From Shewanella oneidensis MR-1 (lineage in GTDB: Bacteria > Pseudomonadota > Gammaproteobacteria > Enterobacterales > Shewanellaceae), in NCBI RefSeq assembly GCF_000146165.2, contig NC_004347.2, positions 4,263,029 through 4,327,028 on the forward strand: a stretch of DNA of 64,000 nt, in the 5' to 3' direction. The translations under genes were made by a program, and so were the position numbers. Position 1 is the stretch's first letter. The number at the start of each line of letters is the position of its first letter. Shown here one piece after another: positions 41,516-61,645 of this stretch. Under the pieces are notes generated by a model that did not search any database, was not told the origin of the DNA, and saw only the letters and a program-made list of their open reading frames with translations.

Positions 41516-43165
41516 ATGATTGAGTCTTTACGTCTATTGGCACAACACAAATCATTTACCGAGCTTTTGCTTTCATCTACCCTGATTAATGTGCTGTCAC
41601 TGGCATTACCGTTCACAATGTTACAAATATATGATCGGATTTTGCCCAATGAAGCTTACGGCACCGCCAGTGTATTAGCGATTGGCGTTGGAATCGCCAT
41701 ATTACTAGAACTAGTACTACGCTATACACGCAGCTGGTTACTTGCCCTCAACGCGTCGAACTATGAGCTACAAACCACAGCTCAATTTGTCGATCGACTG
41801 ATGAAGGCGGATTACCACCACGTAGAGCAATTAGGATCAGGTAAAATACTCCACGGTATCACCAGCATTGCTACCATGCGGGAGATTTACTCAGGGCAAG
41901 CTGCTGTCGCCTTAATGGATTTTCCATTTGTTATCATATTTTTAGCCTTAGTAGCCTATATTGGCGGACCATTAGTCTTTATCCCAATATTGGTTTGGGG
42001 GATAGCTGGCATTGGCGTGTGGCAAATAGGCAAAAAACTCTCCGTCGCCACCCGAGAACTCGCCATCAGTGACGATGAACGAACCCGCTTACTCATTTTA
42101 GTGTTATCAGGCTTAACGACGGCAAAATCCCTCGCGTTGGAATCGCGAATTACTTATGCCTACAAAAAAATCAACTACCAAAGGTTAGCGCAGCAAAATG
42201 AGGTTGATTGGCTATCATCCCAGTTACAAGAATGGATTCAGGGGGCTTCGCAGGCTACCACACTGGCACTGGTGCTGATTGGCTGTTTTGAAGTATTAAA
42301 TGGCGATCTAACAACGGGGGGATTAGCGGCATGTTCAATCCTTGCAGGCAGAGCCGTCGCGCCCTTAAGTGCAATTGGCAGTTTAAAAGCGAAGTTTGTT
42401 ACCGCTCAGTCTGCGATGCAAGATGTTAACGAAATCATAGCCTCCCCTCCAGAGTCCTTGAATGGTACTCAGGTTTACCAGCAAAAATTACCTTCAGGCC
42501 CCATTCAATTTGAGCAGGTATCAGCACAACAAACAGGGGCAAAACTTAAGCAAATTAACCTAACAATCCCCGCGGGTAGCCTTGTCACTGTAACCTCAAA
42601 TCCACTCACACATGCCAGTTTATTGTTAAGTACCGTGGGCGGCTATCATCAGGTGACAGAGGGTGCCATCAAGATTGATTCTATCCCATTAACTGAACAT
42701 GACCCGCTGGAGTATCGCCAATCCATTAGCTATGTGTCGCCATGGGCTACGTTACTTGCGGGCTCCATTTTGGATAATCTGACTCTGTTTCGCCATGAGC
42801 GGGAAGCCTATGCCATGGTTCTCGCAGACAAACTGGGCTTATCTGCCACGATTGCGCAGTTACCTGCGGGTTATCAAACCTTAGTGGGTAATAATGACAG
42901 CCAAATGCTCAATAAGGGGGCTATCAAGCTCATCGCCATTGTCAGAGCGCTTGCCCAATCCCCTTCGATACTGTTACTCGACGAGCCTATGGTCTCCCTC
43001 GATGCAGACTCTCAGCAACGCCTACTCGCTTTGTTACTCGAACTCAAAAACCACATCACCCTGATTGTGGCCTCCTATTTTACGGAAATTGCAGCGATCA
43101 GTGACTATCGCATCCATATTTCATCGCAAGGGGACGCAACTATGTCGTCAAATGGGGAGCTTTAA
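41516..43165 (+). CDS. Type I secretion ABC half-transporter with degenerate ATP site
   Basis: 549 residues: a six-helix membrane domain (about 15-290) with the type I secretion opening FTELLLSSTLINVLSLALPFTML, fused to a nucleotide-binding domain (about 320-545). That domain is damaged: the Walker A position reads VTSNPLTHASLL with no GxxGxGK[ST], the ABC signature reads LNKGAIKL, and the H-loop His is replaced (IVASYF). Walker B (ILLLDEP) and the D-loop region (SLDAD) remain. It lacks the N-terminal C39-like domain. It is two bases from the second ABC gene, with which it must form a heterodimer. Confidence 0.88.
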   Translation: MIESLRLLAQHKSFTELLLSSTLINVLSLALPFTMLQIYDRILPNEAYGTASVLAIGVGIAILLELVLRYTRSWLLALNASNYELQTTAQFVDRLMKADYHHVEQLGSGKILHGITSIATMREIYSGQAAVALMDFPFVIIFLALVAYIGGPLVFIPILVWGIAGIGVWQIGKKLSVATRELAISDDERTRLLILVLSGLTTAKSLALESRITYAYKKINYQRLAQQNEVDWLSSQLQEWIQGASQATTLALVLIGCFEVLNGDLTTGGLAACSILAGRAVAPLSAIGSLKAKFVTAQSAMQDVNEIIASPPESLNGTQVYQQKLPSGPIQFEQVSAQQTGAKLKQINLTIPAGSLVTVTSNPLTHASLLLSTVGGYHQVTEGAIKIDSIPLTEHDPLEYRQSISYVSPWATLLAGSILDNLTLFRHEREAYAMVLADKLGLSATIAQLPAGYQTLVGNNDSQMLNKGAIKLIAIVRALAQSPSILLLDEPMVSLDADSQQRLLALLLELKNHITLIVASYFTEIAAISDYRIHISSQGDATMSSNGEL

Positions 43166-43167
43166 CA

Positions 43168-45252
43168 ATGCATAACCAAGCGCAGTCTGTCCCAAACTTA
43201 AAATCCCTATTAGTCACACTATTTACTCAACTCGGACTTAATGCCCAAGCCAAGAATATTGAACGCAGCGCATTAGTGGATGATGCGAGTTATTTAGATG
43301 CGTATGTCTTATTTAAAAAACATCATGTTGTGGCCGATTTACGCTCTATTGATCCCGAGACGCTCAGCCATACAATCTATCCTTTCCTTATCCTACCTGA
43401 AGAGGGAGAGCCGCAGATAGGACGGCGCAACCAGCACACCTTTGAATATTTAGGCCCACACAATCAATGGCAGCCAATCACACTCCCTTCTGATGGAAAA
43501 GTATTTATTATTAACAGCCTGCCTTCCCTCAATCAAAAAAGGAGTCGCTTTGCCAGCCAGTTTAAGCAGCAAAAAAAGTGGTTCAAACCCGTTTTTTTAT
43601 TAAGCCTCGTAGCCAGCTTAACCGGATTAGCGATACCGCTTTTTACCATGGCGGTATACGACAGAGTAATAGGAGGACAAGCCCCCAATATTTTACCTGG
43701 TATCGCAATTGGTGCATTCCTTGCTTTAAGCATTTTTATTTCTAGCCGATTGCTGCGGGCCAAAGTGCTGGCCAGCGCAAGCAATAAATTGGCGCGAGAT
43801 CTGTCAGCCGTATCCTTTAATCAACTCCTCAGTATGCCCTTGATGATGTTATCCCGAGTTGGACTATCAAATCATTTGGCACGACTTCGTAACGCCGAAA
43901 AGGTGAGAGGATTACTGTCAGGCCCTAGCGGGGGTGGGCTGATTGATTTGCCCTTTACGATCGTGGCGCTTATTGCCATCACAGTTCTCAGTGGTTGGCT
44001 GGTATTAGTACCACTTTGTATGTTGATTCTGTTTTACCTAGTGATGAAAGCCCTAAACCGTTATACCCAAGCCACCAGCCCAACCATCAGCAATGACTAC
44101 CAAAACAGCCTCAATGAACTAGCCAAGAATGTATTAGAGCTGAAAACCGCAGGGGAAACCGAAGGCTGGTACGCAGATTTTATCCGTCGTTGCCGCGAGC
44201 ACTGCCGACAACAATTTATATATGCCAAACGTAATGGACTTAATGCGGCAGTAGCCCATGCCATGGGGCTAATAACAGCCCTAGTTACCGTGTTTTGTGG
44301 CATTTTTTTAGTGTTAAATCAGAGCATTTCACCCGGCGCTTTAATCGCCTGTGGAATGTTGATTTGGCGCATCACAGGCCCCGCCCAATTAGCCTTTTCT
44401 TCGGCGCCTAAAATTAACATGATAAACAGCACTGTCACCCAGTTTGATCGTTTTATGGAGGTGACGACCGAATTTAATCAACTCCGCCTCGATGGGCCTA
44501 ACTTAAATAAAGCGCCTGCACTCAACTTTAAGCATGTCACCCTTCGTTACACTGCTGAAGCAGAACCTGCACTCTCTGGCGTCACATTTGATGTTGAAGC
44601 AGGAGAAACTGTCGCCATTATCGGCCCTAATGGCAGTGGTAAAAGCACCTTATTGCTGACAGCCGTAGGCGTGATTGATACCCAAGCCGGCTTTGTCACT
44701 TTAGATGGCAAAAACCTGAAACAATTTGATCCTGAAGCCTTACGCCAATGGGCCGCATTCAGCCCGACCCACACCGAACTACTGCCGGGATCGTTAGCAG
44801 ATAACTTACGTCTGGCTAAACCCGATGCCACCGATGAGGAGTTGTGCCAAGCACTGTATGAGGCAGGTGGAGACGCTTTAAAAGAGGTGCTCGGTGGCGA
44901 TTTACATCGCAGTTTATCCGCACAGGGAGCCAATATGTTTTCGGTGGTAGGGAGTGGCTATATCAGCCTAGCTCGTGCCCTATTAAAAAAATCGCCTTTG
45001 CTTGTCATGGATGAACCTATCGCCAACCGTAATCCTTTTGCGAAAAAAACCTTTATCGAAACCTTAACCAAGTTAAAGGGCAAAACCACTATTTTATTTA
45101 CTAGCCATGATCAAGAACTGATCCAGCACGCTGATAAGGTCGTTATCTTAGATAAAGGCTCTGTGGTTTATGCAGGTCCGATCCCAAACAAACCCGCAGC
45201 AAGCGATGAAAACCAATCAATGGCTAGCATGGAGACCACACACAATGAATGA
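43168..45252 (+). CDS. Type I secretion ABC transporter, ATP-binding partner
   Basis: 694 residues. An N-terminal domain of about 130 residues resembles the catalytically dead C39-peptidase-like domain of adhesin/toxin exporters. A six-helix membrane domain (about 140-420, FLLSLVASLTGLAIPLFTMAVYDRV) and an ATPase domain follow. Walker A is intact (IIGPNGSGKST), Walker B is LLVMDEP and the H-loop His is present (FTSHDQE), but the signature is aberrant (VVGSGYISLARALL in place of LSGGQ) and the D-loop reads IANRNP. With the first half-transporter it would have at most one working, and atypical, ATP site. Confidence 0.88.
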   Translation: MHNQAQSVPNLKSLLVTLFTQLGLNAQAKNIERSALVDDASYLDAYVLFKKHHVVADLRSIDPETLSHTIYPFLILPEEGEPQIGRRNQHTFEYLGPHNQWQPITLPSDGKVFIINSLPSLNQKRSRFASQFKQQKKWFKPVFLLSLVASLTGLAIPLFTMAVYDRVIGGQAPNILPGIAIGAFLALSIFISSRLLRAKVLASASNKLARDLSAVSFNQLLSMPLMMLSRVGLSNHLARLRNAEKVRGLLSGPSGGGLIDLPFTIVALIAITVLSGWLVLVPLCMLILFYLVMKALNRYTQATSPTISNDYQNSLNELAKNVLELKTAGETEGWYADFIRRCREHCRQQFIYAKRNGLNAAVAHAMGLITALVTVFCGIFLVLNQSISPGALIACGMLIWRITGPAQLAFSSAPKINMINSTVTQFDRFMEVTTEFNQLRLDGPNLNKAPALNFKHVTLRYTAEAEPALSGVTFDVEAGETVAIIGPNGSGKSTLLLTAVGVIDTQAGFVTLDGKNLKQFDPEALRQWAAFSPTHTELLPGSLADNLRLAKPDATDEELCQALYEAGGDALKEVLGGDLHRSLSAQGANMFSVVGSGYISLARALLKKSPLLVMDEPIANRNPFAKKTFIETLTKLKGKTTILFTSHDQELIQHADKVVILDKGSVVYAGPIPNKPAASDENQSMASMETTHNE

Positions 45253-46570: not shown

Positions 46571-46582
46571 GGAGCACGAACT

Positions 46583-49500
46583 ATGAGCCCAAAAAAACCA
46601 TTAACGCTCTCAACCGCAAAACGTAAAAGTCGCATTTCAGCAAAACTCGCCAAAAAGTCTGAAATTGCCGCTAAAAAACTCGATAAAGATGTCGCCAAGC
46701 TCAAGGTAAAGGAATTTAGAGAGGGTGAAGTCCAAAGCACTGCAACCCCAGATATTGTGGCAAGCAAGTCTTGGCGCTTACCCTCGCACGCAGCAACGCA
46801 GCTTGTTAATACCGAAGAATCGACAGAGCAAAAGCCTGATTCGCAATCCGCTACGGTAGACATTGATAACCGTCATTTAACAGCCCAGTCAGCTAGCTCT
46901 AGCACAGACTCGGAAAAAACCTTGTCAGAACTGCCGCAGCAAGCGGATGAAACGCAAACCAAAAATGCCCCTAAGTTCCAAGATTATGGCTCGAGTGAAT
47001 CAACCCATTTAGGGCAAGGTCCACATTTTGACGACACACAATTGCCCCTTGTTACCCTCAGCCAACTCCCTGAAATTGGACATGTTAAGCAGCAGATTGA
47101 ACCGGCAGCATTAACGGTATCAATGGCAAGAACCACATTAACTCAAATTGTGCGCCCCCAAATCATTAGCACTGAACAGCACAACCCACTCACCATTGAC
47201 GAACAAGCCGGCCATCAATCGGTTAAAGAAGATGCCCCAGTCGCGAGCGCCTCTGGAAAACTGCATGCCCATGGGGGAACAGTAACCCCACTCCAATGGA
47301 CTGTCGCAGTTAATCAAGGTCAATTTGGTCGCCTTGATATCGATCCAACAACGGGCGAATGGCATTACCAACTCGATAATAATGCACTTAGCACTGATGC
47401 ATTAGCCGAAGGTGAGCATCAAACCGAACAATTTACTATTACCGTCAGCAGCCCCAATGGCGAACAAGTAAACACTGTCATCATCATCGATGTCGAAGGC
47501 AGTAACGATCTGCCCCAAATTTTAGGGTCGCACCTCGCCAGCATTAATGCGGCGGACTCCTTGCCTGCTGTTACAGGGCAGCTTCACAGTATCGATCCAG
47601 ATCATAACGATGCAGTTTCTTGGGCTGTACTTGACGGGCAAGGTCAATATGGCCAACTGAGTATCAATCCACTCACGGGCCAATGGCAATACCAACTGAA
47701 CACCCATGCAACCGCCACGCTTGCTCTAGTCTCTGGCCAACAAGTGACGGAAACCTTTACCGTCACCGCAACAGATCAATCAGGCCATCCTGTTAGCCAA
47801 CAAGTCAGTATTCAAGTGAATGGCGCTGATAATGTCGCCATCATTCAGGGCGAGATAATAGGTTTAGTGACGGAAGATACTCAGGCGAACAACGGTCAAT
47901 TAACAGTATCAGGCCAATTAAGCATCCAAGATCCAGATAGGGATCAAACCCATTTTTCGGCAGGCTCATTACAGGGACAATATGGTTATCTCACGATCGA
48001 TGTAAACGGCCATTGGATCTACAGCGCCGATAACTCACTGGCCACCGTTCAAAGCCTTAAATCGGGTGAGCATCTTACTGATACTTTTACCATCCACAGC
48101 GCCGATGGTACCGCGCAAAACATCACAGTCACGATTAACGGGACCGATGATAAGGCCGAAATATCAGGTACAACCTCGGCCTCACTCACCGAAGATGACA
48201 ACATTCATCAAGGCATGCTTAGGGCTAATGGCAACCTTGCCATTACAGATAACGACCACGAACCACACTTATTTACAGCGACCGAGCAATATGGTCAGTT
48301 TGGTACCCTCATCATTGATGAATTAGGCCACTGGACCTATACCGCAGATAACTCGCAGACGGCAATTCAAGCACTCAAAACCGGAGAATCCATCACTGAT
48401 ACCCTTGTGGTACAAACCCAAGATGGCACACAGCAAACCATCTCCATCAGCATTCATGGTACCGATGATCACTCTGTGATTATGGGCACATCAGTGATGA
48501 GAGTGTTTGAAGACAAACGCCTTTCTCAAGGACAACTCCATACAGACGGTCAACTCTGGGTAAGCAATCCCGATACCGGGCGAGCAGGATTTGCAGCTGA
48601 ACAACTCCAAGGTCAATTCGGCATATTATCCATCAACACCCATGGCCATTGGACCTACACAGCAGACAACAACAATCCCAGCATACAAGCCCTCAAGCAT
48701 GGTGAATCCTTAACTGAAACCCTGTTTGTACAAGCCTTGGATGGAACAACCCAAAAGATCGCGATTCTGATCAAAGGTGCTGATGATAAAGCAATTATCG
48801 GTGGAACCGACACCGCAACGCTTGTCGAGGATCAATCTCCCCAGCATGGGCAATTACAGGCACATGGCACACTCACCATTACCGACCCCGATGCAGGCCA
48901 AGCCCAGTTCACTGCGCTAACCGATGTGGCTGGCAGCAACGGCTACGGACACTTTAGCCTTGATTCCTCAGGGGTATGGACTTACAACGCTGACAACACG
49001 CAGACTGCCGTTCAGCAACTCAAGACTGGCGAGAGCCTCACCGATACCTTGACCGTCACCAGCGCCGACCGCACTAGCCACACAGTGACTGTCACGATAC
49101 AGGGCTGCAATGACGCGCCCGTGCTAGTTGGGCAAACGCAAAGTGTGACGGAAGACGGCACACAACTCAGCGGCAAAATGATTGCCACCGATGTTGATGC
49201 GGGCGACACGCAAACCTTCAGCCTTGTCAACGCCATTGACGGCTTCACGCTCAACGCGGATGGTAGCTACAACTTTGACCCAAGCCATGCCAGCTACCAG
49301 CATCTGACCGCCGGTCAGACGCAAGACGTGGTGATTGCGATCACGGTGACCGACAGCACTGGCGCGACCAGCTATCAAAACCTCACAATATCAGTCACGG
49401 GTGCCAACGACGGTGCAGTAATTGGTGGCGTCAATATCGGCGCAGTGAGCGAAGACAACACGCTCACCGCCAGCGGAAAACTCACCATCAGCGACGTGGA

Positions 49501-52500
49501 CTCAACCCAAGCCGGATTTATTGCGCAAAATAATCTCGCCGCAACGCATGGCTGTTTCACGCTCAGCGCAAGCGGCGACTGGACGTATGCGCTCGACAAC
49601 AGCAACGCTGCAGTTCAGGCCCTAAAAACCGGCGAATCACTCACAGATACAGTCACCATAAACAGCATTGACGGTACGCAACACACTATTGCCGTTACGA
49701 TTAACGGTAGCAACGATGGCGCTATCATTGCAGGTGTAGATACAGCGACGGCCACGGAAGATGCCAATGTCATCGCAGGGAACATCGAAGCCTGTGGTCA
49801 ACTCACGATTTCTGATCCCGATGCTGGCCAATCCCACTTCACCGCCCAAACGGATGTGGCCGGCAGCAGCGGCTACGGACAATTCAGCCTGAACAGCACT
49901 GGCGCCTGGACCTACAGCGCCGACAACACCCAAGCAGCTATCCAGCAGCTCAAGGCCGGCGACAGCCTCACCGATACCTTGACCATCACCAGCGCCGACG
50001 GCACGATCCACACGTTAACCGTGACCATCCAGGGCACCAACGATGCACCAGTGCTCGCGGCCCAAAGCCAAGCCGTCACTGAAGACGGCACCCAGCTCAG
50101 CGGCCATATGGTCGCGACCGATGCCGATGCCGGTGATAACTTGAGCTTCAGCATCGCTCAGCCGGTTGATGGTTTCACCCTCAACGCGGACGGCAGCTAC
50201 AGCTTCGATCCAAGCCATGCCAGTTATCAGCATCTGGCGGCTGGCCAGACGCAGACTATCACCATTCCAGTTACTGTGACCGATGTGGCTGGCGCGACCA
50301 GTACACGGGACTTGGTTATCAAGCTCAACGGCAGCAACGACGGCGCCGTGATTACAGGAACAGATGTCGCTGCAGTCACAGAAGACCAAACCGCAGGTAG
50401 TGGCCACTTCTTGCAGGTCACTGGCACACTCACGGTAGCCGACGTGGATGCCGGCGAAGCGGTGTTTCAGGCGACTTCGACCAAAAGTCAGTTGGGCGAC
50501 TTCATTCTGCATAGCGACGGCAGTTGGATGTATCAAGCTGACAATACCAACACCGCCGTACAAGCGCTCAAAGCAGGTCAACAGACCACCGACAGTTTCA
50601 CCGTACTCAGCACGGATGGCACGGCGCACACCATTACCATCACGATAACCGGCAGCAACGATGCCCCCACAGTGGCACATGCGCTGACCACAACCACCGC
50701 CACCGAAGACTCGGCCTTCAGCTTCAGCATCCCTACGGGCACCTTTGCCGATATCGATGCCGGCGATACATTGACCTTGAGCGCAGGCAGCTTGCCGGCC
50801 TGGTTACACTTCGATGCGGCCACCGGCACCTTCTCGGGTACGCCCACCAACGGCGATGTCGGCACCATGCAAGTGACTATCACTGCCACCGATGCCAACG
50901 GTGCACAAGTCAGTACCACCTTCGCGCTCACGGTGGCCAACACTAACGACGCCCCCACACTCAACCCCATTGCGACAGTGCACGCAACAGAAGATGGCGC
51001 GCAGGTCACTGGTCAGTTCACCGCTACCGACCCCGACAGCGGCGATACGCTCATCTATAGTATTGCGCAGCCGGTGAATGGCTTCACCCTCAACGCCGAT
51101 GGCAGCTACAGCTTTGACCCTAGTCACACCAGCTACCAGCAATTAGCGGCGGGCCAGACTCAGGATGTGCTCATCCCCATCACCGTGACAGACAGCGCGG
51201 GCGCGACCAGCACGCAAAACCTGACGATCACCGTCACCGGTAGTAATGACGGCGCCGTCATCAGCGGTACCGACTCCGGCTCGGTGATCGAAGATCAGCA
51301 GGTCAGTGCCACGCATATCCTGAGCTGCGGCGGCAAGCTGGCTGTCACCGATGTCGATACTGGGGAAGCGACGTTTGCCGTCCAGCACGGCACAGGGGCG
51401 AACGGCTATGGCAGCTTCGTGCTCGGCCCATCGGGCACCTGGACCTATAGCGCCGACAACACGCAGGCAGCGATCCAGCAACTGAAGGCCGGTGAAACAC
51501 TTACCGACACCTTCACCGTCAGCAGCACAGACGGTACAACTCATACCGTGACCGTCACGATCCAGGGCAGCAACGATGCCCCGGTGCTTGCGGCGCAAAC
51601 GAAGGCTGTCACTGAAGACGGCGCCCTGCTCACAGGCAAGATGGTCGCCACCGATGCAGACGCCGGAGACACACAAGTTTTCAGTACGGCCCAGACTGTC
51701 GATGGTTTCACGCTCAATGCTGACGGCAGCTATAAATTCGATCCATCCCATGCCAGCTACCAGCACTTGGCCGCCGGTCAAACGCAAGACATGGTCATCC
51801 CCGTCACGGTGACCGACAACGCGGGCGCAACCAGCACCCAGAACTTGACTATCACCGTTACCGGCACGAACGACGCCGCCGTGGTGAGCGGTCGAGTTGC
51901 CAATGCGGTCAATGAAGACGGCGTGGTGTCTACCGGCGGACTACTCAGAGCGAGCGGCCTGCTCACGGTTGTCGATCCTGATGCAGGCGAAGCCGTCTTC
52001 GTGGCGCAAACTGGCGTGGCCGGTGCTGGCCACTACGGCAGTTTCAGCATCGATGCGAGCGGCCATTACAGCTACACCGCCGACAACAGCCAAACGGCCA
52101 TCCAGCAACTCAAGGCTGGCGAGACATTGGCCGACCGTTTCACCGTGACGACTGCTGACGGCACGCAGCAGGTTGTCACCATCACCATCAAGGGTGCTGA
52201 AGACAGGCCGGTGCTGCAAGCCCAGACCCATGCCGTCACCGAAGATGGCGCGCGACTGACCGGTCAGATGCTGGCCACCGATGTCGATGCTGGCGATACC
52301 CAGCGTTTCTCAGTCGCTCACCCAGTTGCGGGCTTTGTTCTCAACCCTGACGGCAGCTTCAGCTTTAACCCAGCGCACGCGTCCTACCAGCATCTAGCTG
52401 CGGGCCAGACACAAGACATCGTCATCCCCGTCACGGTCATCGACAGCGCAGGGGGAGTCAGCACGCAGAACCTCACCATCACCGTCACCGGCGTCAACGA

Positions 52501-55500
52501 CCGCGCCGTGATCAGCGGCGTCAGCAATGGCAGGATCACCGAGGATCAAGGCGTCAGCGCCACTCACACTCTGAGCTGTGGCGGTAAGCTTGATGTGACG
52601 GATGTCGACACCGGTGAGGCTGCTTTCGCCGTCCAGCATGGCGCTGGTGCAAACGGTTACGGTAACTTCGTGCTCGACCCATCGGGAAACTGGACTTACA
52701 GCGCAGACAACACCCAAAGCGCAATCCAGCAACTGAAGGCCGGCGAGACGCTTACGGGCACCTTTACCGTCAGCAGCACGGACGGCACGACCCATACCGT
52801 GACCGTCACCATTCAGGGCACAAACGACGCACCGGTACTGGCGGCGCAGACGCAGGCCGTCACAGAAGACGGCACCTTGTTGCAAGGCCGCATGGTCGCC
52901 ACTGATGTGGATGCAAACGACACAAAAACCTTCAGCAGCGCTCAGTCGGTCGATGGCTTCACGCTGAACGCGGATGGTAGTTACAGCTTTGATCCAAGCC
53001 ACGCAAGCTACCAGCATCTGGCGGCAGGCCAAACCCAAACCCTGACGATCCCGGTGACGGTGACGGACAGCGAGGGAGCTACATCAACGCAGAACCTGAC
53101 GATCAGGCTGACCGGCACTAATGACGCGCCCCACATCAGTGGCGCCGATGTTGGTCGGGTCGTCGAAGACCAAACCCTGTCCGTCAGCGGCAAGTTGGCG
53201 ATCAGCGATGCAGACGACGGCCAAGCTCACTTCATCGCCCAGACAGCCACGACGGGCAGCTATGGCAGCCTGACGATCGGCGAAGATGGGCAGTGGCAGT
53301 ATCAGCTCGACAACACCAAGCCCGAAGTTCAGGCACTCAAGAGCACCGAGACCGCCACCGACACCTTCACGGTGCACAGTGCTGACGGCAGCAGCCACAA
53401 CATCACCATCACCATCCAAGGGCAACGCGATAACGTCGTCATTGGCGGCGTGGATGTCGGCGTGGTTAAGGAAGACGTGTCGGCGGTCACCGGAGGGCAT
53501 CTGGTGGCCACCGGCGAAAGCGCCGAGTTCGTCCCCTTGCAGCAGCACACCACGCTGGGCAATTTCGCGATGGATGCCAGTGGCGCCTGGACCTACACAC
53601 TGGACAACAGCCACGCTAGCACGCAGGCACTGAAGGCCGGTGAAACGGCCACAGACACGGTCAGCATCACCCACACCGACGGCACCACCCACACCGTCAC
53701 CATCACGGTCATGGGCACCAACGATGCACCGGTGCTCACCGCGCAAAGCCAAGCAGTGACCGAAGACAGTACGCTGCTCACTGGCCAGATAACTGCCTCC
53801 GATGTGGATAGAGGCGACACACAAATCTTCAGCCTCGCCCACGCCGTCGATGGCTTCACGCTCAACACAGACGGCCGCTACAGCTTCGATCCTGCACATG
53901 GCAGCTATCAGCACCTGGCCACCGGTCAGACGCAAACCCTGACCATCCCGATCATCGTCACGGACAGCGTGGGTGCCAGCAGCACCGCAAACCTGACGAT
54001 CACCCTGACGGGTACGAATGACGGTGCGACCATCGGCGGTGTCAGCACCGGCACAGCCAGCGAAGACAGCACCCTGCTCACCACCGGCCAGCTGACCATT
54101 GCCGATGCCGACGATGGCGAAGCGCACTTTGTCGCGCAGCCCCACATCCAGGGCCTGCATGGCAGCTTCAGCCTCAGCGAAGACGGGCAGTGGCGCTACA
54201 GCGCCGACAGCAGCCAGGCGGCGGTCCAGCAGCTCAAGGCCGGCGACAGCCTGAGCGAGCACTTCACCGTGCACAGCGCCGACGGCACAGCCCACACCGT
54301 CACCGTCACCCTGCAAGGCACGAACGACGCGCCGGTGCTGCAGGCCCAGCACCAATCCGTCAGCGAAGACGCCAGCCTGCTGCAAGGCCAGATGGTGGCC
54401 AGCGATGTGGATCACGGCGACACGCAGACCTTCAGCATCGCTCAGGCGGTGGATGGCTTCACGCTCAATGCCGACGGCAGCTACAGCTTCGATCCGAGCA
54501 ATGCCGCCTACCAGCACCTCACCGCTGGCCAGACCGAGGATCTGGTGATCCCGGTCACCGTCACCGACAGCGCCGGGGCCAGCCACACGCAGAACCTGAC
54601 GATCACCATCACCGGTACCAATGACGGCGCCGTGATCGGTGGTGCCTTCACCGGCGCGGTGACCGAGGACCAGTCCGTCCAGTCCGGTCAGCTGCAGGCC
54701 TCGGGCCAGCTGACCATCACCGACGCCGACAGCGGCGAAAGCCACTTCATCCCGCAGACCGATGTGCTCGGCAGTGATGGCCTCGGCCGCTTCAGCCTGG
54801 ACGCCCAGGGCCAATGGAGCTACAGCGCCGACAACAGCCAGAAGGCCATCCAGCAGCTGGCCGCCGGCGCCACCCTGAACGATTCCTTCACGGTGCAAGG
54901 GGCCGATGGCGCCCAGCACACCGTGACGGTGACGCTGACCGGTACCAATGACGCGCCGCAGTTCCATCTGCAGGTGGCGCCGGACTACCACCCCGAGGTG
55001 GAATCTAGCGATGTCCTGCCCCTGGTCATCAACAACATCGGCAGCAGCCGGATCGCGCAGTACCTGGACATTCAGCAGATCCTGCAAGGCCAGGCCCCCA
55101 TCGGCGCCTATGCCAACACCTGCGTCACGGTGAGCTTGGGCGGCCTGGCCCTGATCGGGCCGGACGGGCAGGCGGCCCAGGTCTTCGCGGCCGGGCAGGA
55201 GTTCAAGCTGCAGACCTTGGTGGACTGGCAGCAGCAGGGCCCTGGCCACGAGTTCCGCGTGTTCGGCCCCAAGGGCACGACCGAGCTGGACCTCAGCCTC
55301 CACGATGCCGGCGACCCGAACCACATTACCGGGCCGCACGGCCAGGCCAGCCTCTACGTCAATCAGGTCATGATCTGGCCGCCTTTCCACGCCTGGCAGG
55401 CCAGTGCCGGTAGTGGTACCGGGACGGCCACCGACAGCGGCCTGCTGACCGCCACCGAAGGCGGCCCCGCCTTGAGCGGCCAGTTCCACGCCAGCGATAT

Positions 55501-58500
55501 CGATGTGGGCGACACTCTGGCCTTCAGCCTGGGGCACCCGGTGGACGGCTTCACGCTGAACGCCGATGACAGCTACAGCTTTGACCCGGCCCACCCGAGC
55601 TACCAGCACCTGGCCGCCGGCCAGAGGGAGACGCTGAGCATCCCCATCACCGTGACCGACAGCGCAGGGGCCAGCACGACGCAGACCCTGAGCATCCTAT
55701 TGAGGGGCGCCAACGACGCCGCCACCTTTGGCGGGGTCGAGACCGGCGCCACGCAGGAAGACCGGTCCGATGCACTGAGCGGCCAGCTCACGGTGGCCGA
55801 TGCCGACGATGGCGAGGCCCACTTCATCGCGCAAAGCGGCACGGCGGGCAGCTATGGGCAATTCAGCCTTGATGAAAACGGCCAGTGGCACTACCAGATC
55901 GACAACAGCAAGCCCGAGGTGCAGGCCCTGCGCGACGGCCAGAACGTCACCGACAGCTTCACCGTGCGCAGCGCCGACGGTACGGCGCACACGGTCAACA
56001 TCAGCATCGCCGGCAAGAACGATTCAGCGGTCATCACCGGTGAGGACCACCAGACCCTGACCGAGGACCAGAACGTCAGCGGCGGCCAGCTCATCGCCCA
56101 CGGCCAGCTGCATGCCAGCACGCCTGACGCCGGCGGCGACCAGTTCACGCCCCTCTCAGACCTGGCTGGCAAGTTCGGCCACCTCTCGCTGGGTGCGGAC
56201 GGCAGTTGGGTCTACAAGGCCGACAACAACAGCCCCGCTGTGCAGGCCCTGCACGCCGGGCAAAGCGCCACCGAAAGCTTCACCGTGCACAGCGTTGACG
56301 GCACGGCCCACACCCTGAGCCTGAGCATCCAGGGCGCGGACGAGCCCCGGCACGACATCTGGTCCAGCATCGTCAGCACCATTAAGAGCAATTGGGCGCC
56401 TTACAACCTGATCGGCCACGCCATCGATGCCGGGGATGTTGGCGCCCTTGGCTCCATGAGGTTGGCCTTCACCAGCGGCAACCCTAGCGTGGTGGATGCC
56501 AACGGCCATGTGCTGGCCAGCGGCAGCAGTCTCGGCGCGTTCGGCCACGACATCAGCATGGGCCAGGTGGTGGACCTGCTGAAGAGCCACCCGGGCGCCC
56601 GGCTGGTGCTGGACGGCAACGTCGGCGGCAGCAGTGGCTTCTATCTGCACGACAGCGGCGACGTGATGGAGCTGCACTTCCGCGGCCTGTCCCACTACAA
56701 CCAGGCCAACAGCCCCATGGGCCAGCTGCCCATCGACGGCCTGCCCACCCCCTTGAGCGCGGCGGGGACCGTGCCCGATGTCAGCGACTTGACCATCTCG
56801 GTCACCGACATCAGCGTCGATCACGCGAGCCAGCTGCAGACCAGCGGCCAGCTCAACATCAGCGACGCGGATGCCGGCGAAAACCACTTCAACGCGCAGA
56901 AGGATGTGGCCGGGACCTACGGCAGCTTCAGCATCGACGCCAGCGGCCACTGGGTCTACAGCGTGGACAACGGCCAGGCGGCGGTGCAAAACCTGCAGGC
57001 TGGCGCCCAGCTGACCGACAGCTTCATGGTGACCAGTGCCGACGGCAGCAGCCATGTGATCTCGGTGGCGGTCTACGGCAAGAACGACGCCCCGGTGCTG
57101 TTCGCGCAAAGTCAGTCGGTGAGTGAAGACGGCGCCCTGCTCAGCGGCCAGATGCACGCCAGCGACGTGGATGCGGGCGACACCCTGAGCTTCCGCATCG
57201 ACCAGGCGGTGGCCGGCTTCACACTGAACGCCGACGGCAGCTACAGCTTCGACCCGTCCAACGCGGCCTATCAGCATCTGGCCGCCGGCCAGACGCAGAC
57301 GCTCGTGATCCCGGTGTTCGTCACCGACCACATGGGCGCGAGCTCGGTGCAGGACCTGACCATCACCCTCACCGGCGCCAACGACGGCCCGCAGGTGCTT
57401 CACGCCACGGCGGCCACGGCCGGCGACCTGGGCGCGGTCAACGAAGACACGCCGCGCGTGTTCACCGAAGCCGAGCTGCTGCAAGCCGTGGGCGCGACCG
57501 ACCCCGACGACGGCGGCAGCCTGCACATCGTCGCCGGCTCGTTGACCTCATCGCACGGCACGTTCACCGGCGATGCCGCCCACGGCTTCACCTTCACCCC
57601 GACGGCGAATTTCAGCGGCCAGGACATCGACCTGCAGTTCAGCGTGACAGATGGCAGCGCCACCCGCGAGGCCCATGTGCAGCTGGACATCACACCTGTC
57701 GCTGATGCACCGCTGCGGGTGACGGCGCCGACTATCACCACCGATTTCGACAGCATCTCCTTGCCCGGTGTTGGCTGGACGCAGACTGACCCGTCCCCGA
57801 CGGGCTGGCACACGGACGAGAGTAGCGGCGTGGAAATCGGCCAGGAGCGGCTTTACGGCGGCAGCGGCAACAATCAGATACTGAGTCTGACCGCCAGCTG
57901 GGGCAGCAATATCTACCGCGAACTTCCCACCCAAGCCGGTGAGGCAGTGCACTTGGGCTTTGATCTCTCGGCTCGTCCCGGTTTTGCGGTGACGCCCCTC
58001 GAGGTTCTGTGGGAAGGCAAGGTGATCGACACCATCACCCCGGTGGCGGGCAGCTATTCCATGCTGCACCATGACTACGATCTGCTCGCCAACGGCAGCA
58101 ATTCGCGGCTGGAGCTACGCGCCAGCGGGCAGGGGGAAGCGCGCGTCCTTATCGACAACATACAGATCGGCCCGCCCGAGCATGTGTTACTGGGCGATCA
58201 CGACACGCTGCTCAAGCCTTACTTAGGCTTTCAGCTCGCCGACACCGATGGCAGCGAAACGCTGAGTTATGGGATTCATGGCTTGCCGGTGGGTTTCACA
58301 CTCACCGATGGAACGCACAGCGCCATCGTCAGCAGCGCCGGTCAAGTGATTGAGACCGCTGGCTGGAACCAGGACACCCTGGCCGTGCGTGCGCCGCAGG
58401 GCTTCCAGGGTACAGTCAGCATCCAGGTAACGGCCCATGCCGAAGAGGGCAGCAATCACCAGACGGCCAATGCGGCCGACTTGACCCTGGAGCTTCGTCT

Positions 58501-61500
58501 CGTGCCGGTCAGCCATGCGGCTGTGATCAGTGGGGAAAACGCCATCACCTTGACCGAGGATCAGCAGGTCGATGCTCTGGGTTTCCTCGAGCATTTTGGC
58601 CAGTTGAATGTCAGCGATCCCGATGCCGGTGAGGCTAAATTCGTTGCCCAGAATGCGGTGAACACGCAGTACGGACGCTACACCATTGGCGGGGACGGTT
58701 ATTGGCTCTATGAGGCGGACAACAAATTGCCCGCCATCCAGCAGCTCAAGACCGGCGAATCCCTGACCGACAGCTTCACCGTGCACAGCATCGACGGTAC
58801 ACCGCAGACCATCACCGTGACTATCCAGGGCCAGGATGATGTCGCTGCCTTTGTGCCGCAGGCTCAAGCAGCGCAGGTCGACTCGGCCGACGTTTACACC
58901 CAGATTAGCGTGCAGCTGCTGGACAGCCAGCACCGCGAGTTCGAATTCATGGGCGAGGTGCTGCTAGCCAATACCGACCCGCGCAACTACATCGATGCTG
59001 AAATGTCGTTCACCAACACAGGGGTGGCGCTGCGTGCGCCCGACGGCAGTTTGTCCAAGGTCTACCACGCGGAGGGGGGCATGACCACCGTGCCGGTGAT
59101 GGACCTGAGAGCTTGGCACAACAAGGGCCAGGGCTATGAGGTGGTGCTGGTGGACGCCACCGGTATGCCGGTCAATGTCTTCCCCCACGACGCCGGCGAC
59201 CCCGACAAGTTGTCGGGCTTCAACCAGTACGTGACCGGTTTCAGCGGGCCCTTCAATGCGGCCGTCGTGCTGTACCCGGACATGCAGGCGGCCAGCAGCG
59301 GCGGCGCGGTGCAAGGCGGCGCCTTCGTGCCGGCCATCGCCCCGCTGCTGTATGACGCTGCGCATGTGCTGGAAGACAATGGCCAGCAGATCTCCGGCTT
59401 CATCGAGGTGCAGGACGCCGACAAGGGCCAGTCGTCCATGCAGGCGATGACCGACCACCACGCGGCGCACGGTACCTTCAGCATCGACGTCAACGGCGAC
59501 TGGGTCTACCAGCTCGACAGCCGCCGCCCCGATGTGCAGGCGCTCAAAGCCGGCGAAACCCTGCTCGAAACCATCACAGTGCACAGTGCCGACGGCACCC
59601 CGCATGAGGTCAACATCACCATTCACGGTCAGAACGACGGCGCGGTGATCAGCGGTGCCGACACCGGCCAGCTGGTGGAAGATCAGAACGTCAGTGCCGC
59701 CAGCACCCTCGAGGCTCACGGCCAGTTGACAGTGACGGACGCAGATGCCGGCGAAGCCGCCTTCGTAGCGCAGAACGCCGTGGCCACGCAGTTCGGCCAC
59801 ATCAGCATCGACGCCAGCGGTGCCTGGCGTTATGAAGTCGACAACAACAAAGCCGATGTGCAAGCCCTCAAGGCTGGCGAGAGTCTTACCGAGCATCTCA
59901 CCGTTAGCAGCGTTGACGGCACCACCCATGTGCTGACGGTGACTGTGCAGGGCAGCAACGATGCGCCAGTGCTGCAAGCGCAAAGCCAGTCAGTCACCGA
60001 GGACGGCAGCCTGCTGCGCGGCCAGATGGTGGCGCAGGACGCGGATCACGGCGATGTGCTGCGCTTCACCACCCATGCTGCGGTGGGGGGCTTCGCGCTC
60101 AACGCCGACGGCAGCTACAGCTTCGACCCTAGCCACCATGACTATCAGGGCTTGACCGCTGGCCAGGTGCGCGACATCGACATTCCAATCGTCGTCACCG
60201 ACAGCGCCGGGGCCAGCTCTATCCAGATGCTTAGCATCCACATCACTGGCCGCAACGACAGCACCTTCATCTACGGCGTGGACAGCGGTAATGTGCAAGC
60301 CGGTGTGCACCCCCAGACCTCGGGCGATCTGCACGCCAGCGATGACGATGCCGGCCAGAGCGGCTTCCAGGCCGGCACGGTCAAGGGCAGCTTCGGCAGC
60401 CTGAGCATCGATGCCCAGGGCCATTGGACCTATCAAGTGGATGGGCATGACAGCTTCGTCCAGCACCTGCTGCCCAACTCCTACATCACCGAACAGCTGA
60501 CGGTGCACAGCGTGGATGGCACGGCCCATGACATCGAGATTGAGGTCAGCGGCGCGCCAGCCGGCAGCCAACTGAGCGCCCCAGCGGACAGCGCCAATGT
60601 CCAGCATGTGGCCCTGCCGCAGGTCTGGGGGGCAGTGCAGGGGCAGCCTGTGGCCGGTCATGATGTGTTTGCTGGCATCTTGGCTGCAGTCCGCGCTGGA
60701 GGCTACCAGTATCAGGGTCTTGCCGACGAGCTGGATAAAGGCAGTTTAGCTGCTGTGGGGAATATGGATCTGAGTATCACTGGGGTGCATGCACAAGTGG
60801 TCGACAAGTTCGGGCAGGTGGTACAAAGCATTTCGCCCACCGCCGAGAATGCCGCCACTCTGCATATGAGCGATGTACTACTCTGGCACGCGCAAGGCCA
60901 CAGCATCATTGCTACTAGCGATAGCGGATTCGATTCCACGCGGATGTGGCTGCATAACACTGGCGATATGCACAATATCCAAGTGATCTTGCCCAACGGC
61001 ACCGGCTTCAATGGTTGGGTGGGAGAGTATTCCCTCGGTGAACTATCATTAAGCCCGGCCATTGCCTACCCCGCCCCCCCTGCCAGCGACGAGCAGGACG
61101 ATGAGCCAATTCAAATATTGAACTTCAATGAGGTGATACGAAACGAAGATAGCATGCAGTCCATGACAGCGGCAGGAGTAAAGGCCGGTGATGAAGCCGT
61201 AATAGGTAATAACGACTACCCTCTCCCTTTGAATGCTGCCACGGAATATAAAGGGAATCTCAACGAGCTTTCGTTATCATCCAGTCATGGTACTAGTGGG
61301 ACAACTCCTCTCACTACAACGGATGCACACTTTGCAGCCCAAGCTTCACCGGTTGATCACTACCTGCAAATGTTAGGACTTAGCCCAACAGCAGTGAACC
61401 TATCTCCTTCTGTGCCAGTGGAGTTATTGCCATCGCTATCCTCAAGCGATCACTTCAATGATATTGATGCACCGATGTACGCTATCCCTGAGGTGAACCA

Positions 61501-61645
61501 TTTTGAAAACCCATTATTAGATAATGACAAGGAGCAACATAAAGATCGTCATTTCGACCTATTTGATGTAACAGAACTTCACACGAATCCGAATGACGAT
61601 GACCTATTACATTCAGCACTCAACGACATGCACAACCAAATGTAA
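46583..61645 (+). CDS. Giant VCBS-repeat adhesin, type I secretion substrate
   Basis: A 5020-residue, surface-bound or secreted adhesin, the last gene of the export operon, 12 bases after the HlyD-type gene. GGGAGC precedes the ATG. The first 30 or so residues are Lys/Ser-rich without a signal peptide, as expected for type I export. From about residue 205 the protein is an array of roughly 35 VCBS/cadherin-like repeats of near 100 residues, with TEDG or TEDQ starts and GTNDAPV ends. A He_PIG/cadherin-like unit lies at about 1363-1461, a jelly-roll-like domain at about 3721-3864, and four copies of an unrecognised domain follow or interrupt the array. I find no RTX nonapeptides. The last 190 residues are acidic and AT-rich in coding, unlike the GC-rich middle. 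Large DNA repeats make its length prone to change. Confidence 0.92.
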   Translation: MSPKKPLTLSTAKRKSRISAKLAKKSEIAAKKLDKDVAKLKVKEFREGEVQSTATPDIVASKSWRLPSHAATQLVNTEESTEQKPDSQSATVDIDNRHLTAQSASSSTDSEKTLSELPQQADETQTKNAPKFQDYGSSESTHLGQGPHFDDTQLPLVTLSQLPEIGHVKQQIEPAALTVSMARTTLTQIVRPQIISTEQHNPLTIDEQAGHQSVKEDAPVASASGKLHAHGGTVTPLQWTVAVNQGQFGRLDIDPTTGEWHYQLDNNALSTDALAEGEHQTEQFTITVSSPNGEQVNTVIIIDVEGSNDLPQILGSHLASINAADSLPAVTGQLHSIDPDHNDAVSWAVLDGQGQYGQLSINPLTGQWQYQLNTHATATLALVSGQQVTETFTVTATDQSGHPVSQQVSIQVNGADNVAIIQGEIIGLVTEDTQANNGQLTVSGQLSIQDPDRDQTHFSAGSLQGQYGYLTIDVNGHWIYSADNSLATVQSLKSGEHLTDTFTIHSADGTAQNITVTINGTDDKAEISGTTSASLTEDDNIHQGMLRANGNLAITDNDHEPHLFTATEQYGQFGTLIIDELGHWTYTADNSQTAIQALKTGESITDTLVVQTQDGTQQTISISIHGTDDHSVIMGTSVMRVFEDKRLSQGQLHTDGQLWVSNPDTGRAGFAAEQLQGQFGILSINTHGHWTYTADNNNPSIQALKHGESLTETLFVQALDGTTQKIAILIKGADDKAIIGGTDTATLVEDQSPQHGQLQAHGTLTITDPDAGQAQFTALTDVAGSNGYGHFSLDSSGVWTYNADNTQTAVQQLKTGESLTDTLTVTSADRTSHTVTVTIQGCNDAPVLVGQTQSVTEDGTQLSGKMIATDVDAGDTQTFSLVNAIDGFTLNADGSYNFDPSHASYQHLTAGQTQDVVIAITVTDSTGATSYQNLTISVTGANDGAVIGGVNIGAVSEDNTLTASGKLTISDVDSTQAGFIAQNNLAATHGCFTLSASGDWTYALDNSNAAVQALKTGESLTDTVTINSIDGTQHTIAVTINGSNDGAIIAGVDTATATEDANVIAGNIEACGQLTISDPDAGQSHFTAQTDVAGSSGYGQFSLNSTGAWTYSADNTQAAIQQLKAGDSLTDTLTITSADGTIHTLTVTIQGTNDAPVLAAQSQAVTEDGTQLSGHMVATDADAGDNLSFSIAQPVDGFTLNADGSYSFDPSHASYQHLAAGQTQTITIPVTVTDVAGATSTRDLVIKLNGSNDGAVITGTDVAAVTEDQTAGSGHFLQVTGTLTVADVDAGEAVFQATSTKSQLGDFILHSDGSWMYQADNTNTAVQALKAGQQTTDSFTVLSTDGTAHTITITITGSNDAPTVAHALTTTTATEDSAFSFSIPTGTFADIDAGDTLTLSAGSLPAWLHFDAATGTFSGTPTNGDVGTMQVTITATDANGAQVSTTFALTVANTNDAPTLNPIATVHATEDGAQVTGQFTATDPDSGDTLIYSIAQPVNGFTLNADGSYSFDPSHTSYQQLAAGQTQDVLIPITVTDSAGATSTQNLTITVTGSNDGAVISGTDSGSVIEDQQVSATHILSCGGKLAVTDVDTGEATFAVQHGTGANGYGSFVLGPSGTWTYSADNTQAAIQQLKAGETLTDTFTVSSTDGTTHTVTVTIQGSNDAPVLAAQTKAVTEDGALLTGKMVATDADAGDTQVFSTAQTVDGFTLNADGSYKFDPSHASYQHLAAGQTQDMVIPVTVTDNAGATSTQNLTITVTGTNDAAVVSGRVANAVNEDGVVSTGGLLRASGLLTVVDPDAGEAVFVAQTGVAGAGHYGSFSIDASGHYSYTADNSQTAIQQLKAGETLADRFTVTTADGTQQVVTITIKGAEDRPVLQAQTHAVTEDGARLTGQMLATDVDAGDTQRFSVAHPVAGFVLNPDGSFSFNPAHASYQHLAAGQTQDIVIPVTVIDSAGGVSTQNLTITVTGVNDRAVISGVSNGRITEDQGVSATHTLSCGGKLDVTDVDTGEAAFAVQHGAGANGYGNFVLDPSGNWTYSADNTQSAIQQLKAGETLTGTFTVSSTDGTTHTVTVTIQGTNDAPVLAAQTQAVTEDGTLLQGRMVATDVDANDTKTFSSAQSVDGFTLNADGSYSFDPSHASYQHLAAGQTQTLTIPVTVTDSEGATSTQNLTIRLTGTNDAPHISGADVGRVVEDQTLSVSGKLAISDADDGQAHFIAQTATTGSYGSLTIGEDGQWQYQLDNTKPEVQALKSTETATDTFTVHSADGSSHNITITIQGQRDNVVIGGVDVGVVKEDVSAVTGGHLVATGESAEFVPLQQHTTLGNFAMDASGAWTYTLDNSHASTQALKAGETATDTVSITHTDGTTHTVTITVMGTNDAPVLTAQSQAVTEDSTLLTGQITASDVDRGDTQIFSLAHAVDGFTLNTDGRYSFDPAHGSYQHLATGQTQTLTIPIIVTDSVGASSTANLTITLTGTNDGATIGGVSTGTASEDSTLLTTGQLTIADADDGEAHFVAQPHIQGLHGSFSLSEDGQWRYSADSSQAAVQQLKAGDSLSEHFTVHSADGTAHTVTVTLQGTNDAPVLQAQHQSVSEDASLLQGQMVASDVDHGDTQTFSIAQAVDGFTLNADGSYSFDPSNAAYQHLTAGQTEDLVIPVTVTDSAGASHTQNLTITITGTNDGAVIGGAFTGAVTEDQSVQSGQLQASGQLTITDADSGESHFIPQTDVLGSDGLGRFSLDAQGQWSYSADNSQKAIQQLAAGATLNDSFTVQGADGAQHTVTVTLTGTNDAPQFHLQVAPDYHPEVESSDVLPLVINNIGSSRIAQYLDIQQILQGQAPIGAYANTCVTVSLGGLALIGPDGQAAQVFAAGQEFKLQTLVDWQQQGPGHEFRVFGPKGTTELDLSLHDAGDPNHITGPHGQASLYVNQVMIWPPFHAWQASAGSGTGTATDSGLLTATEGGPALSGQFHASDIDVGDTLAFSLGHPVDGFTLNADDSYSFDPAHPSYQHLAAGQRETLSIPITVTDSAGASTTQTLSILLRGANDAATFGGVETGATQEDRSDALSGQLTVADADDGEAHFIAQSGTAGSYGQFSLDENGQWHYQIDNSKPEVQALRDGQNVTDSFTVRSADGTAHTVNISIAGKNDSAVITGEDHQTLTEDQNVSGGQLIAHGQLHASTPDAGGDQFTPLSDLAGKFGHLSLGADGSWVYKADNNSPAVQALHAGQSATESFTVHSVDGTAHTLSLSIQGADEPRHDIWSSIVSTIKSNWAPYNLIGHAIDAGDVGALGSMRLAFTSGNPSVVDANGHVLASGSSLGAFGHDISMGQVVDLLKSHPGARLVLDGNVGGSSGFYLHDSGDVMELHFRGLSHYNQANSPMGQLPIDGLPTPLSAAGTVPDVSDLTISVTDISVDHASQLQTSGQLNISDADAGENHFNAQKDVAGTYGSFSIDASGHWVYSVDNGQAAVQNLQAGAQLTDSFMVTSADGSSHVISVAVYGKNDAPVLFAQSQSVSEDGALLSGQMHASDVDAGDTLSFRIDQAVAGFTLNADGSYSFDPSNAAYQHLAAGQTQTLVIPVFVTDHMGASSVQDLTITLTGANDGPQVLHATAATAGDLGAVNEDTPRVFTEAELLQAVGATDPDDGGSLHIVAGSLTSSHGTFTGDAAHGFTFTPTANFSGQDIDLQFSVTDGSATREAHVQLDITPVADAPLRVTAPTITTDFDSISLPGVGWTQTDPSPTGWHTDESSGVEIGQERLYGGSGNNQILSLTASWGSNIYRELPTQAGEAVHLGFDLSARPGFAVTPLEVLWEGKVIDTITPVAGSYSMLHHDYDLLANGSNSRLELRASGQGEARVLIDNIQIGPPEHVLLGDHDTLLKPYLGFQLADTDGSETLSYGIHGLPVGFTLTDGTHSAIVSSAGQVIETAGWNQDTLAVRAPQGFQGTVSIQVTAHAEEGSNHQTANAADLTLELRLVPVSHAAVISGENAITLTEDQQVDALGFLEHFGQLNVSDPDAGEAKFVAQNAVNTQYGRYTIGGDGYWLYEADNKLPAIQQLKTGESLTDSFTVHSIDGTPQTITVTIQGQDDVAAFVPQAQAAQVDSADVYTQISVQLLDSQHREFEFMGEVLLANTDPRNYIDAEMSFTNTGVALRAPDGSLSKVYHAEGGMTTVPVMDLRAWHNKGQGYEVVLVDATGMPVNVFPHDAGDPDKLSGFNQYVTGFSGPFNAAVVLYPDMQAASSGGAVQGGAFVPAIAPLLYDAAHVLEDNGQQISGFIEVQDADKGQSSMQAMTDHHAAHGTFSIDVNGDWVYQLDSRRPDVQALKAGETLLETITVHSADGTPHEVNITIHGQNDGAVISGADTGQLVEDQNVSAASTLEAHGQLTVTDADAGEAAFVAQNAVATQFGHISIDASGAWRYEVDNNKADVQALKAGESLTEHLTVSSVDGTTHVLTVTVQGSNDAPVLQAQSQSVTEDGSLLRGQMVAQDADHGDVLRFTTHAAVGGFALNADGSYSFDPSHHDYQGLTAGQVRDIDIPIVVTDSAGASSIQMLSIHITGRNDSTFIYGVDSGNVQAGVHPQTSGDLHASDDDAGQSGFQAGTVKGSFGSLSIDAQGHWTYQVDGHDSFVQHLLPNSYITEQLTVHSVDGTAHDIEIEVSGAPAGSQLSAPADSANVQHVALPQVWGAVQGQPVAGHDVFAGILAAVRAGGYQYQGLADELDKGSLAAVGNMDLSITGVHAQVVDKFGQVVQSISPTAENAATLHMSDVLLWHAQGHSIIATSDSGFDSTRMWLHNTGDMHNIQVILPNGTGFNGWVGEYSLGELSLSPAIAYPAPPASDEQDDEPIQILNFNEVIRNEDSMQSMTAAGVKAGDEAVIGNNDYPLPLNAATEYKGNLNELSLSSSHGTSGTTPLTTTDAHFAAQASPVDHYLQMLGLSPTAVNLSPSVPVELLPSLSSSDHFNDIDAPMYAIPEVNHFENPLLDNDKEQHKDRHFDLFDVTELHTNPNDDDLLHSALNDMHNQM
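54958..55400 (+). other. Unrecognised adhesin domain, copy A
   Basis: Residues about 2792-2940. Key segments are IGPDGQAAQVF, LVDWQQQGPGHEFRVFG and LSLHDAGDPNHI. It is clearly not a VCBS unit and is followed by a Gly/Ala/Thr-rich linker. It shares order and motifs with copies B, C and D. Confidence 0.6.
56340..56790 (+). other. Unrecognised adhesin domain, copy B
   Basis: Residues about 3253-3403. Key segments are VVDANGHVLASG, MGQVVDLLKSHPGARLVLDG and FYLHDSGDVMEL. It is inserted between two VCBS units. Confidence 0.6.
57745..58175 (+). other. Jelly-roll-like (carbohydrate-binding type) domain in the adhesin
   Basis: Residues about 3721-3864. The segments GWHTDESSGVEIGQERLYGG, NQILSLTASWGSNIYRELP and VHLGFDLSARPG follow the pattern of the beta-sandwich lectin-like domain common in type I secreted adhesins. 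A ligand-binding role is inferred. Confidence 0.6.
58855..59300 (+). other. Unrecognised adhesin domain, copy C
   Basis: Residues about 4091-4239. Key segments are LRAPDGSLSKVY, VMDLRAWHNKGQGYEVVLVD and VFPHDAGDPDKL. It is nearest to copy A in its HDAGDP motif. Confidence 0.6.
60580..61065 (+). other. Unrecognised adhesin domain, copy D
   Basis: Residues about 4666-4828. Key segments are VVDKFGQVVQSI, MSDVLLWHAQGHSIIATSD and MWLHNTGDMHNI. It is the last domain before the AT-rich C-terminal tail. Confidence 0.6.

Follow-up and report, generated by a model that had tools for sequence, protein, structure and literature searches.

A giant adhesin of 5020 residues, encoded in a 64 kb stretch of the two-contig, 5.13-Mb genome of Shewanella oneidensis MR-1 (the whole stretch is referred to here as the window), contains four divergent segments that are, on the evidence of sequence profiles, homologous copies of a single domain family. 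The domain is about 130-150 residues long, and all four copies lie in the C-terminal 45% of a protein that Pfam and NCBIfam label as VCBS/cadherin-like. The family is undescribed as judged from the libraries searched, in which it has no convincing match. With moderate confidence, we read the domain as a new tip module, probably ligand-binding, carried on a VCBS adhesin that would be secreted by a type I system.

Four copies of one divergent domain family

The first-pass annotation of this DNA had proposed four divergent copies of one domain in the adhesin, each marked by a short motif of the HDAGDP kind at residues 2907, 3356, 4202 and 4791. The motifs are found at exactly these positions (Table 1), and the common descent of the copies was borne out by profiles that recovered every class of the family from the remaining ones. 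For this held-out test a hidden Markov model (HMM) was built without the class in question, expectation values (E) were scaled to 100,000 sequences, and the sequences carried 5-8 flanking residues. The alpha class was recovered with a best E of 1.4e-11 (best decoy shown, 230), delta with 6.4e-14 (20), and epsilon with 7.7e-13 (3.7); for gamma (best E 1e-17) all three decoy rows listed are themselves true copies. When beta and beta2 were withheld together, the best E was 4e-6 for beta and 2.2e-5 for beta2, whose worst held-out copy scored 0.17, and the best decoy shown scored 280 in both cases. Some of the rows counted as lying outside the domain are true copies missed by the duplicate filter (those for gamma, and the top rows for delta and epsilon).

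The copies themselves were defined with an early-round search model, built from many of the same copies, because an iterative search run without safeguards strayed into VCBS units in its fourth round. Under that model the copies score 126-173 bits and everything else listed scores below 6. The drift would be expected if the domain were a degenerate VCBS or cadherin unit and not a separate family, and the VCBS model of NCBIfam (TIGR01965) does touch 4 of the 22 members scanned, with a best E of 0.0013, several members having been scanned with VCBS flanks attached. Yet alignment of the domain profile to a VCBS profile with hhalign gave a probability of 0.3% over 11 columns, and no unit is called by the VCBS model inside any of the four copies. 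A VCBS origin, at which the drifting search had hinted, was rejected on the hhalign result and the early-round scores, and a degenerate unit is thus a very improbable account of the family.

The motif is a less secure guide than the profiles. The pattern H..GD has exactly four matches in the adhesin, which are the four copies, but by itself it is weak: residue shuffles of the protein average 1.56 matches and reach at least 4 in 71 of 1000. The tighter H[DN][AST]GD gave 4 matches in none of 1000 shuffles, but the form of this pattern was fitted to the finding.

An initial set of 67 copies (47 unique) was drawn from the window protein, 15 records (one being the window protein's own) and loci of congeners. 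These copies fall into five linked groups, one of which is split into beta and beta2, for a total of six classes: alpha (8 unique copies), beta (7), beta2 (5), gamma (12), delta (7), and epsilon (8). A second search and three copies from the congener G172 enlarged the set to 73 copies, 56 of them unique, in 20 proteins and 23 clusters at 80% identity; the window protein is counted twice among the 20, P0007 being its own shortened record. The gamma class was found in 15 protein records, the window's own included, and the epsilon class in 11, of which one is the window's own and three are new. The hosts belong to Shewanella, Aeromonas, Pseudomonas/Aquipseudomonas, Roseateles, and Chitinibacter, with up to six classes in a single relative.

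The first-pass annotation had not recognized the family, and library searches agree. Pfam, one of the libraries that it had proposed to search, has no match to any of the four copies at E<=10. Across 22 members, eight Pfam families match one member each (best E 0.049), and NCBIfam families other than VCBS match at most 2 members; the best of the latter are acylphosphatase models (0.0063), far below cut-off where cut-offs are shown. The best match in PHROGs has an E of 0.003. Against PDB sequences, a 22-row family profile reached 0.061 and a gamma profile 0.39, and copies 1, 2 and 4 alone had no match at E<=1; PA14, peptide-binding domain and vWFA chains are absent from the PDB matches listed, their presence in the set being unchecked. 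Literature searches produced no paper that was recognized as describing the domain.

Searches beyond these proteins were also negative. Among 7701 candidates no stand-alone version of about domain size was found at E<=0.01. Gamma-class patterns gave 11 matches and no relatives in species-genome contigs (from which the window genome and near ones were possibly excluded), and a pattern scan of viral contigs gave 44 matches and no relatives. No match was found in plasmids with copy 3 (E<=1e-5) or in phages with copy 4 (E<=0.01), and 369 genomes sampled from the taxonomic class yielded the genome itself and one chance match. A match in genome G179 (58 positions, E 5e-4), in an open reading frame (ORF) read as secretin-like, was judged to be chance; those in G017, G123, and G066 (E 0.009 to 0.085), short pieces of ORFs of 358-649 residues, were judged likewise.

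Placement in the stalk and candidate roles

The stalk was delimited with a VCBS profile of 106 positions built in this analysis, units being counted at E<=1e-3. The claim of the first-pass annotation that the copies sit between VCBS units, and do not replace part of one, holds for the window protein. The unit before each copy is complete, matching model positions 1-106, 1-105, 2-106, and 2-105 for copies 1 to 4. After copy 1 the model calls nothing until residue 3045, and residues 2935-3044 look, on visual inspection, like a second type of cadherin-like unit; in relatives P0010 and P0011 a unit is called directly after the equivalent of copy 1. The units after copies 2 and 3 begin at model positions 12 and 9, and none follows copy 4.

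The same claim fails for the family as a whole. The delta class, which is absent from the window protein, sits inside a VCBS unit in all nine relatives in which its placement was tested (P0008-P0011, P0017, P0018, and P0022-P0024). The first piece of the split unit ends at model position 83-90 and the unit resumes at 82-83. The second pieces are short and reach 1e-5 to 1e-6, with 6.9e-5 for the weakest. G172, outside this nine-protein test, also carries a delta copy. In the window protein a unit similar by eye to the one split by delta is uninterrupted (residues 4352-4458, model 1-106), a state that could also reflect loss by recombination.

Split domains have reportedly been surveyed by Graham et al. 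in 2024. According to two papers, the ligand-binding domains of other giant adhesins are recognized by their emergence from split domains (PMC12077191, PMC10865825). The insertion of delta into a VCBS unit resembles the way those domains project (PMC12077191) and speaks for a ligand-binding module here. Position along the chain is a further regularity: in the window protein, as in all eight relatives that show an N-terminal segment of 177-205 residues, the copies come after the first 55% of the chain. Under this reading, the pair of ABC proteins and the HlyD-type protein encoded beside the adhesin gene would export the adhesin (a presumed route), its N-terminus would be retained at the cell, and the VCBS/cadherin units would make up a calcium-stiffened stalk; calcium stiffening has been reported for the repeats of RTX adhesins (PMC7493085). 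The four domains, together with a non-VCBS block of 378 residues, would then be exposed near the outer end as several different binding modules. We infer that the domains bind ligands, that their targets differ from class to class, and that the tip points outward.

Between copies 2 and 3 lies the 378-residue block, a candidate for a further tip module. A 230-residue piece of it has no Pfam match, and in NCBIfam choice_anch_C matches only at an E of 0.052, far below the family cut-off. Residues 3677-3977 of the block are 99% identical in both Aeromonas sobria proteins and have no match in the S. xiamenensis or Roseateles proteins.

Another way to account for the domains is as structural spacers or hinges that set angles in the stalk and bind nothing. 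The invariant residues are glycines, with a D/N-rich turn, and the window copies do lie between units. Against this, the copies are few (1 to 6 per protein) and lie toward the C-terminal end, their classes are strongly diverged, and the delta class is found inside a unit, not between units. A purely structural role is therefore unlikely.

Conservation across the family bears on what might be bound. Only two glycines (residues 4155 and 4184 in copy 3) are invariant in all 23 clusters. The histidine (4202 in copy 3 numbering) is kept in 20, with Asn in 2 and Tyr in 1; the residue after it is Asp in 12 clusters and Asn in 11; at the last position of H..GD, 17 clusters have Asp and 6 have Asn, and the Gly before it is kept in 21. 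The first-pass annotation had envisaged metal- or ligand-binding modules on a VCBS stalk. The stalk stands, with type I secretion genes alongside, but the conserved Asp/His metal site is not supported in the form proposed, since the Asp/Asn swaps and losses of His make a strict Asp/His metal center unlikely. A His-Asp site for metal-dependent catalysis or binding can still point to the histidine and to the D/N-x-G-D/N that follows it in most clusters; against these exchanges of Asp for Asn at two positions and three losses of His, it is an improbable reading. Such a pattern would suit a turn, or at the very most a site of calcium type in which Asn is tolerated.

Relationships of the tip and of the gene ends

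The domain region of the adhesin gene has relationships that differ from those of both gene ends, as sequence comparisons along its length make plain. At the protein level, residues 1-200 are 94% identical to the Shewanella cutis protein P0024. At the DNA level, the window and the relative G098 share one block from nt 45000 to 48927 (through residue 782) at 95.8% identity, and another at 90.0% from residue 4806 to beyond the downstream end of the gene; between residues 782 and 4806 there is no block above 88% (E<=1e-20).

Close matches to the tip are found outside Shewanella. Aeromonas, Pseudomonas, Aquipseudomonas, and Roseateles were compared at the protein level. When residues 2601 to 4800 are divided into 22 steps of 100, the most similar protein among A. 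sobria, Aquipseudomonas, and Pseudomonas SL4 shares 85-100 residues with the window protein in 21 steps and 79 in the remaining one. The two A. sobria proteins are 97 and 89% identical to copy 1, 98 and 98% to copy 2, 91 and 91% to copy 3, and 87% to copy 4 in the one that reaches it. Identities to copies 1-4 are 95, 95, 90, and 77% in Aquipseudomonas and 94, 94, 85, and 86% in Pseudomonas SL4; Roseateles, without copy 4, has 92, 98, and 77% for copies 1-3. Two A. veronii proteins are farther away (copy 3 51%, copy 4 57%), and the S. cutis tip is 37% identical in copy 3 and 60% in copy 4.

The C-terminal tail has no match at E<=1e-5 in these non-Shewanella records, one A. sobria record ending before it. 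Residues 1-200 likewise have no match in P0008, P0017, P0018, and P0022. These four retain a different N-terminal segment and are the only records for which this test is fair, those of A. sobria, Pseudomonas SL4, and Roseateles looking cut. Four S. xiamenensis proteins have the Shewanella frame, with the N-terminus at 80-81% in three (the fourth lacks its start) and the tail at 37% in all four. Their tips match copy 1 at 96-98% in three and lack it in one, copy 2 at 67%, copy 3 at 84%, and copy 4 at 73-74%, a combination of frame and tip that argues against an assembly artifact. Exchange between lineages would probably account for these differing relationships.

The divergence of the classes, and the contrast in relationships between the domain region and the gene ends, might also be expected if the domains bound each other on neighboring cells, the classes serving as self-recognition tags. 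Different genera share the same versions at high identity, however, which would blur self-recognition, and we consider this quite improbable.

Among 148 genomes of the family, the exporter subunit P0002 has a match in 37 (own included), 36 within the genus and one distant at 36% identity, and the 36 genomes that have the C-terminal tail are those same 36 of the genus. Matches to the N-terminal 200 residues occur in 20 of the 148, closely (82-100%) in G000, G098, G008, and G172 and at 29-40% identity in the other 16. The frame is thus common in diverged form, and the tip is seen in one close group of the genus whose members differ strongly in it. Selection on the copies looks purifying, but looser than on the exporter: the ratio of nonsynonymous to synonymous substitution rates (dN/dS) is 0.23-0.60 for window copies 2-4 against relatives of the same class, three of the four pairs having dS above 1, and 0.05 for P0002.

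A broader proposal, which we advance only tentatively, is that the domain represents a new adhesin recognition family with a fold of its own and, to date, six diverged classes, and that it passes between Gammaproteobacteria and Betaproteobacteria when recombination places it in secretion-and-anchor frames already resident there. Several observations weigh against this proposal or against the tip-module reading that underlies it. None of the four window copies interrupts a VCBS unit, and the best conserved positions, two glycines, suggest a fold and not a shared binding site. Within Shewanella the domain reaches convincing scores only in the four genomes that have the close N-terminus, which form one close group and not a diverse set of frames. 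The interior is partly common to congeners: scanned in 300-base steps, G172 is 79-93% identical in DNA around copy 2 and G008 up to 87% in the stalk. The N-terminal residues 1-200, with few changes, have a dN/dS of 0.41. Third-position guanine-plus-cytosine (GC) content is 0.44 in the anchor, 0.73 in the stalk, 0.83 in the tip, and 0.44 in the tail, but GC-rich adhesin interiors occur in all three relatives examined (G098, G008, and G172). Recent import judged from GC alone was rejected on this ground; composition neither dates nor sources the exchange, because the gene interiors of relatives are GC-rich too.

If the broader proposal is true, a lineage would change its attachment target by replacing the middle of one giant gene. 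To our knowledge, few ligand-binding modules of giant adhesins have been described. A six-class family on frames with different tips would help to connect the tip of an adhesin with the surface to which an aquatic bacterium attaches, and the domain fills an annotation gap, stretches that had no family name in the libraries searched.

Two side observations concern the reading frames of these genes. Long antisense ORFs on the minus strand face the GC-rich repeats of the window gene (53084-55609, 56156-57526, and 58964-59983) and were judged to be by-products of composition. The G172 adhesin is spread over two overlapping frames, 3630 and 3562 residues long (L026/L027, C18:45699-67236, minus strand), possibly through a frameshift or an assembly error.

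Secretion genes and comparison with known systems

Table 1. Adhesin gene, its parts, and the adjoining secretion genes in the window (window coordinates).
Feature	Coordinates	Strand	Basis
ABC exporter subunit P0002, without Walker A	41516..43165	+	Pfam ABC_membrane, ABC_tran; no GxxGxGK[ST] match
ABC exporter subunit P0003, intact Walker A	43168..45252	+	Pfam; GPNGSGKS at residue 486
HlyD-type membrane fusion protein P0004	45170..46570	+	Pfam HlyD_3, E 1.8e-20
Adhesin gene, 5020 residues, 33 VCBS-like units	46583..61645	+	ORF; TIGR01965 and Cadherin_4 matches
Shewanella-type N-terminal part, residues 1-782	46583..48927	+	Common to relative G098, 95.8% nucleotide identity
Domain copy 1, alpha class, residues 2791-2938, HDAGDP at 2907	54953..55396	+	Profile extents; held-out recovery
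Domain copy 2, beta class, residues 3253-3389, HDSGDV at 3356	56339..56749	+	Start, end of preceding VCBS unit; end, profile match
Non-VCBS block, 378 residues, possible second tip module, between copies 2 and 3	57380..58513	+	No unit called by VCBS profile
Domain copy 3, gamma class, residues 4091-4236, HDAGDP at 4202	58853..59290	+	Profile match; held-out recovery
Domain copy 4, epsilon class, residues 4678-4826, HNTGDM at 4791	60614..61060	+	Profile match; held-out recovery
Shewanella-type C-terminal tail, probable secretion signal	60998..61645	+	G098 alignment block resumes at nt 60998, 90.0%

Some of the features of RTX adhesins are present in this protein: its 33 VCBS-like units are tandem extenders, and type I secretion genes, for two ABC proteins and an HlyD homolog, lie beside its gene. 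The nonapeptide repeats typical of RTX adhesins, sought as GGxGx[DN], have 1 match only in the 5020 residues. Given its occurrence in the same 36 genomes of the genus as the P0002 matches, the tail (61100-61642) may act as a dedicated secretion signal, one that has no RTX repeats. LapA-type adhesins are cleaved near the N-terminus at a site of the AAG type, and no AAG was found within the first 250 residues of the adhesin (P0001).

Some other genes of the neighborhood may be mentioned for completeness. The secretion operon is adjoined by a gene for a CSS-EAL protein (39750-41252, minus strand), a probable cyclic di-GMP (c-di-GMP) phosphodiesterase, which is 98.6% identical in G098 and matched by only short fragments in G172. 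Farther upstream, 36298-39516 encodes a DUF3373 protein and a multihaem cytochrome with an MtrC-like domain.

The absence of a Walker A motif from P0002 and its presence in P0003 suggest a heteromeric exporter. MARTX systems also appear to require two ABC proteins (PMC3034196). As in the atypical type I secretion system of the MARTX type (RtxB plus RtxE), described in the same source, two genes for ABC subunits accompany one for an HlyD homolog, whereas the likely substrate here is a VCBS adhesin. The observation that one ABC subunit lacks Walker A refers to the window exporter.

The VCBS repeat (TIGR01965) and Cadherin_4 are the neighboring units of the same protein and have no profile similarity to the domain. 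Set against the ligand-binding domains of other adhesins, the present family differs in having no convincing sequence match to solved chains, in occurring as up to six related classes per protein, and in the position of the window copies between units. It is like the ligand-binding modules of other giant adhesins, as portrayed in PMC12077191 and PMC10865825, in being small and in lying toward the outer end of a chain of immunoglobulin-like extenders, and its delta class, inserted in a VCBS unit, is like those modules that emerge from split domains.

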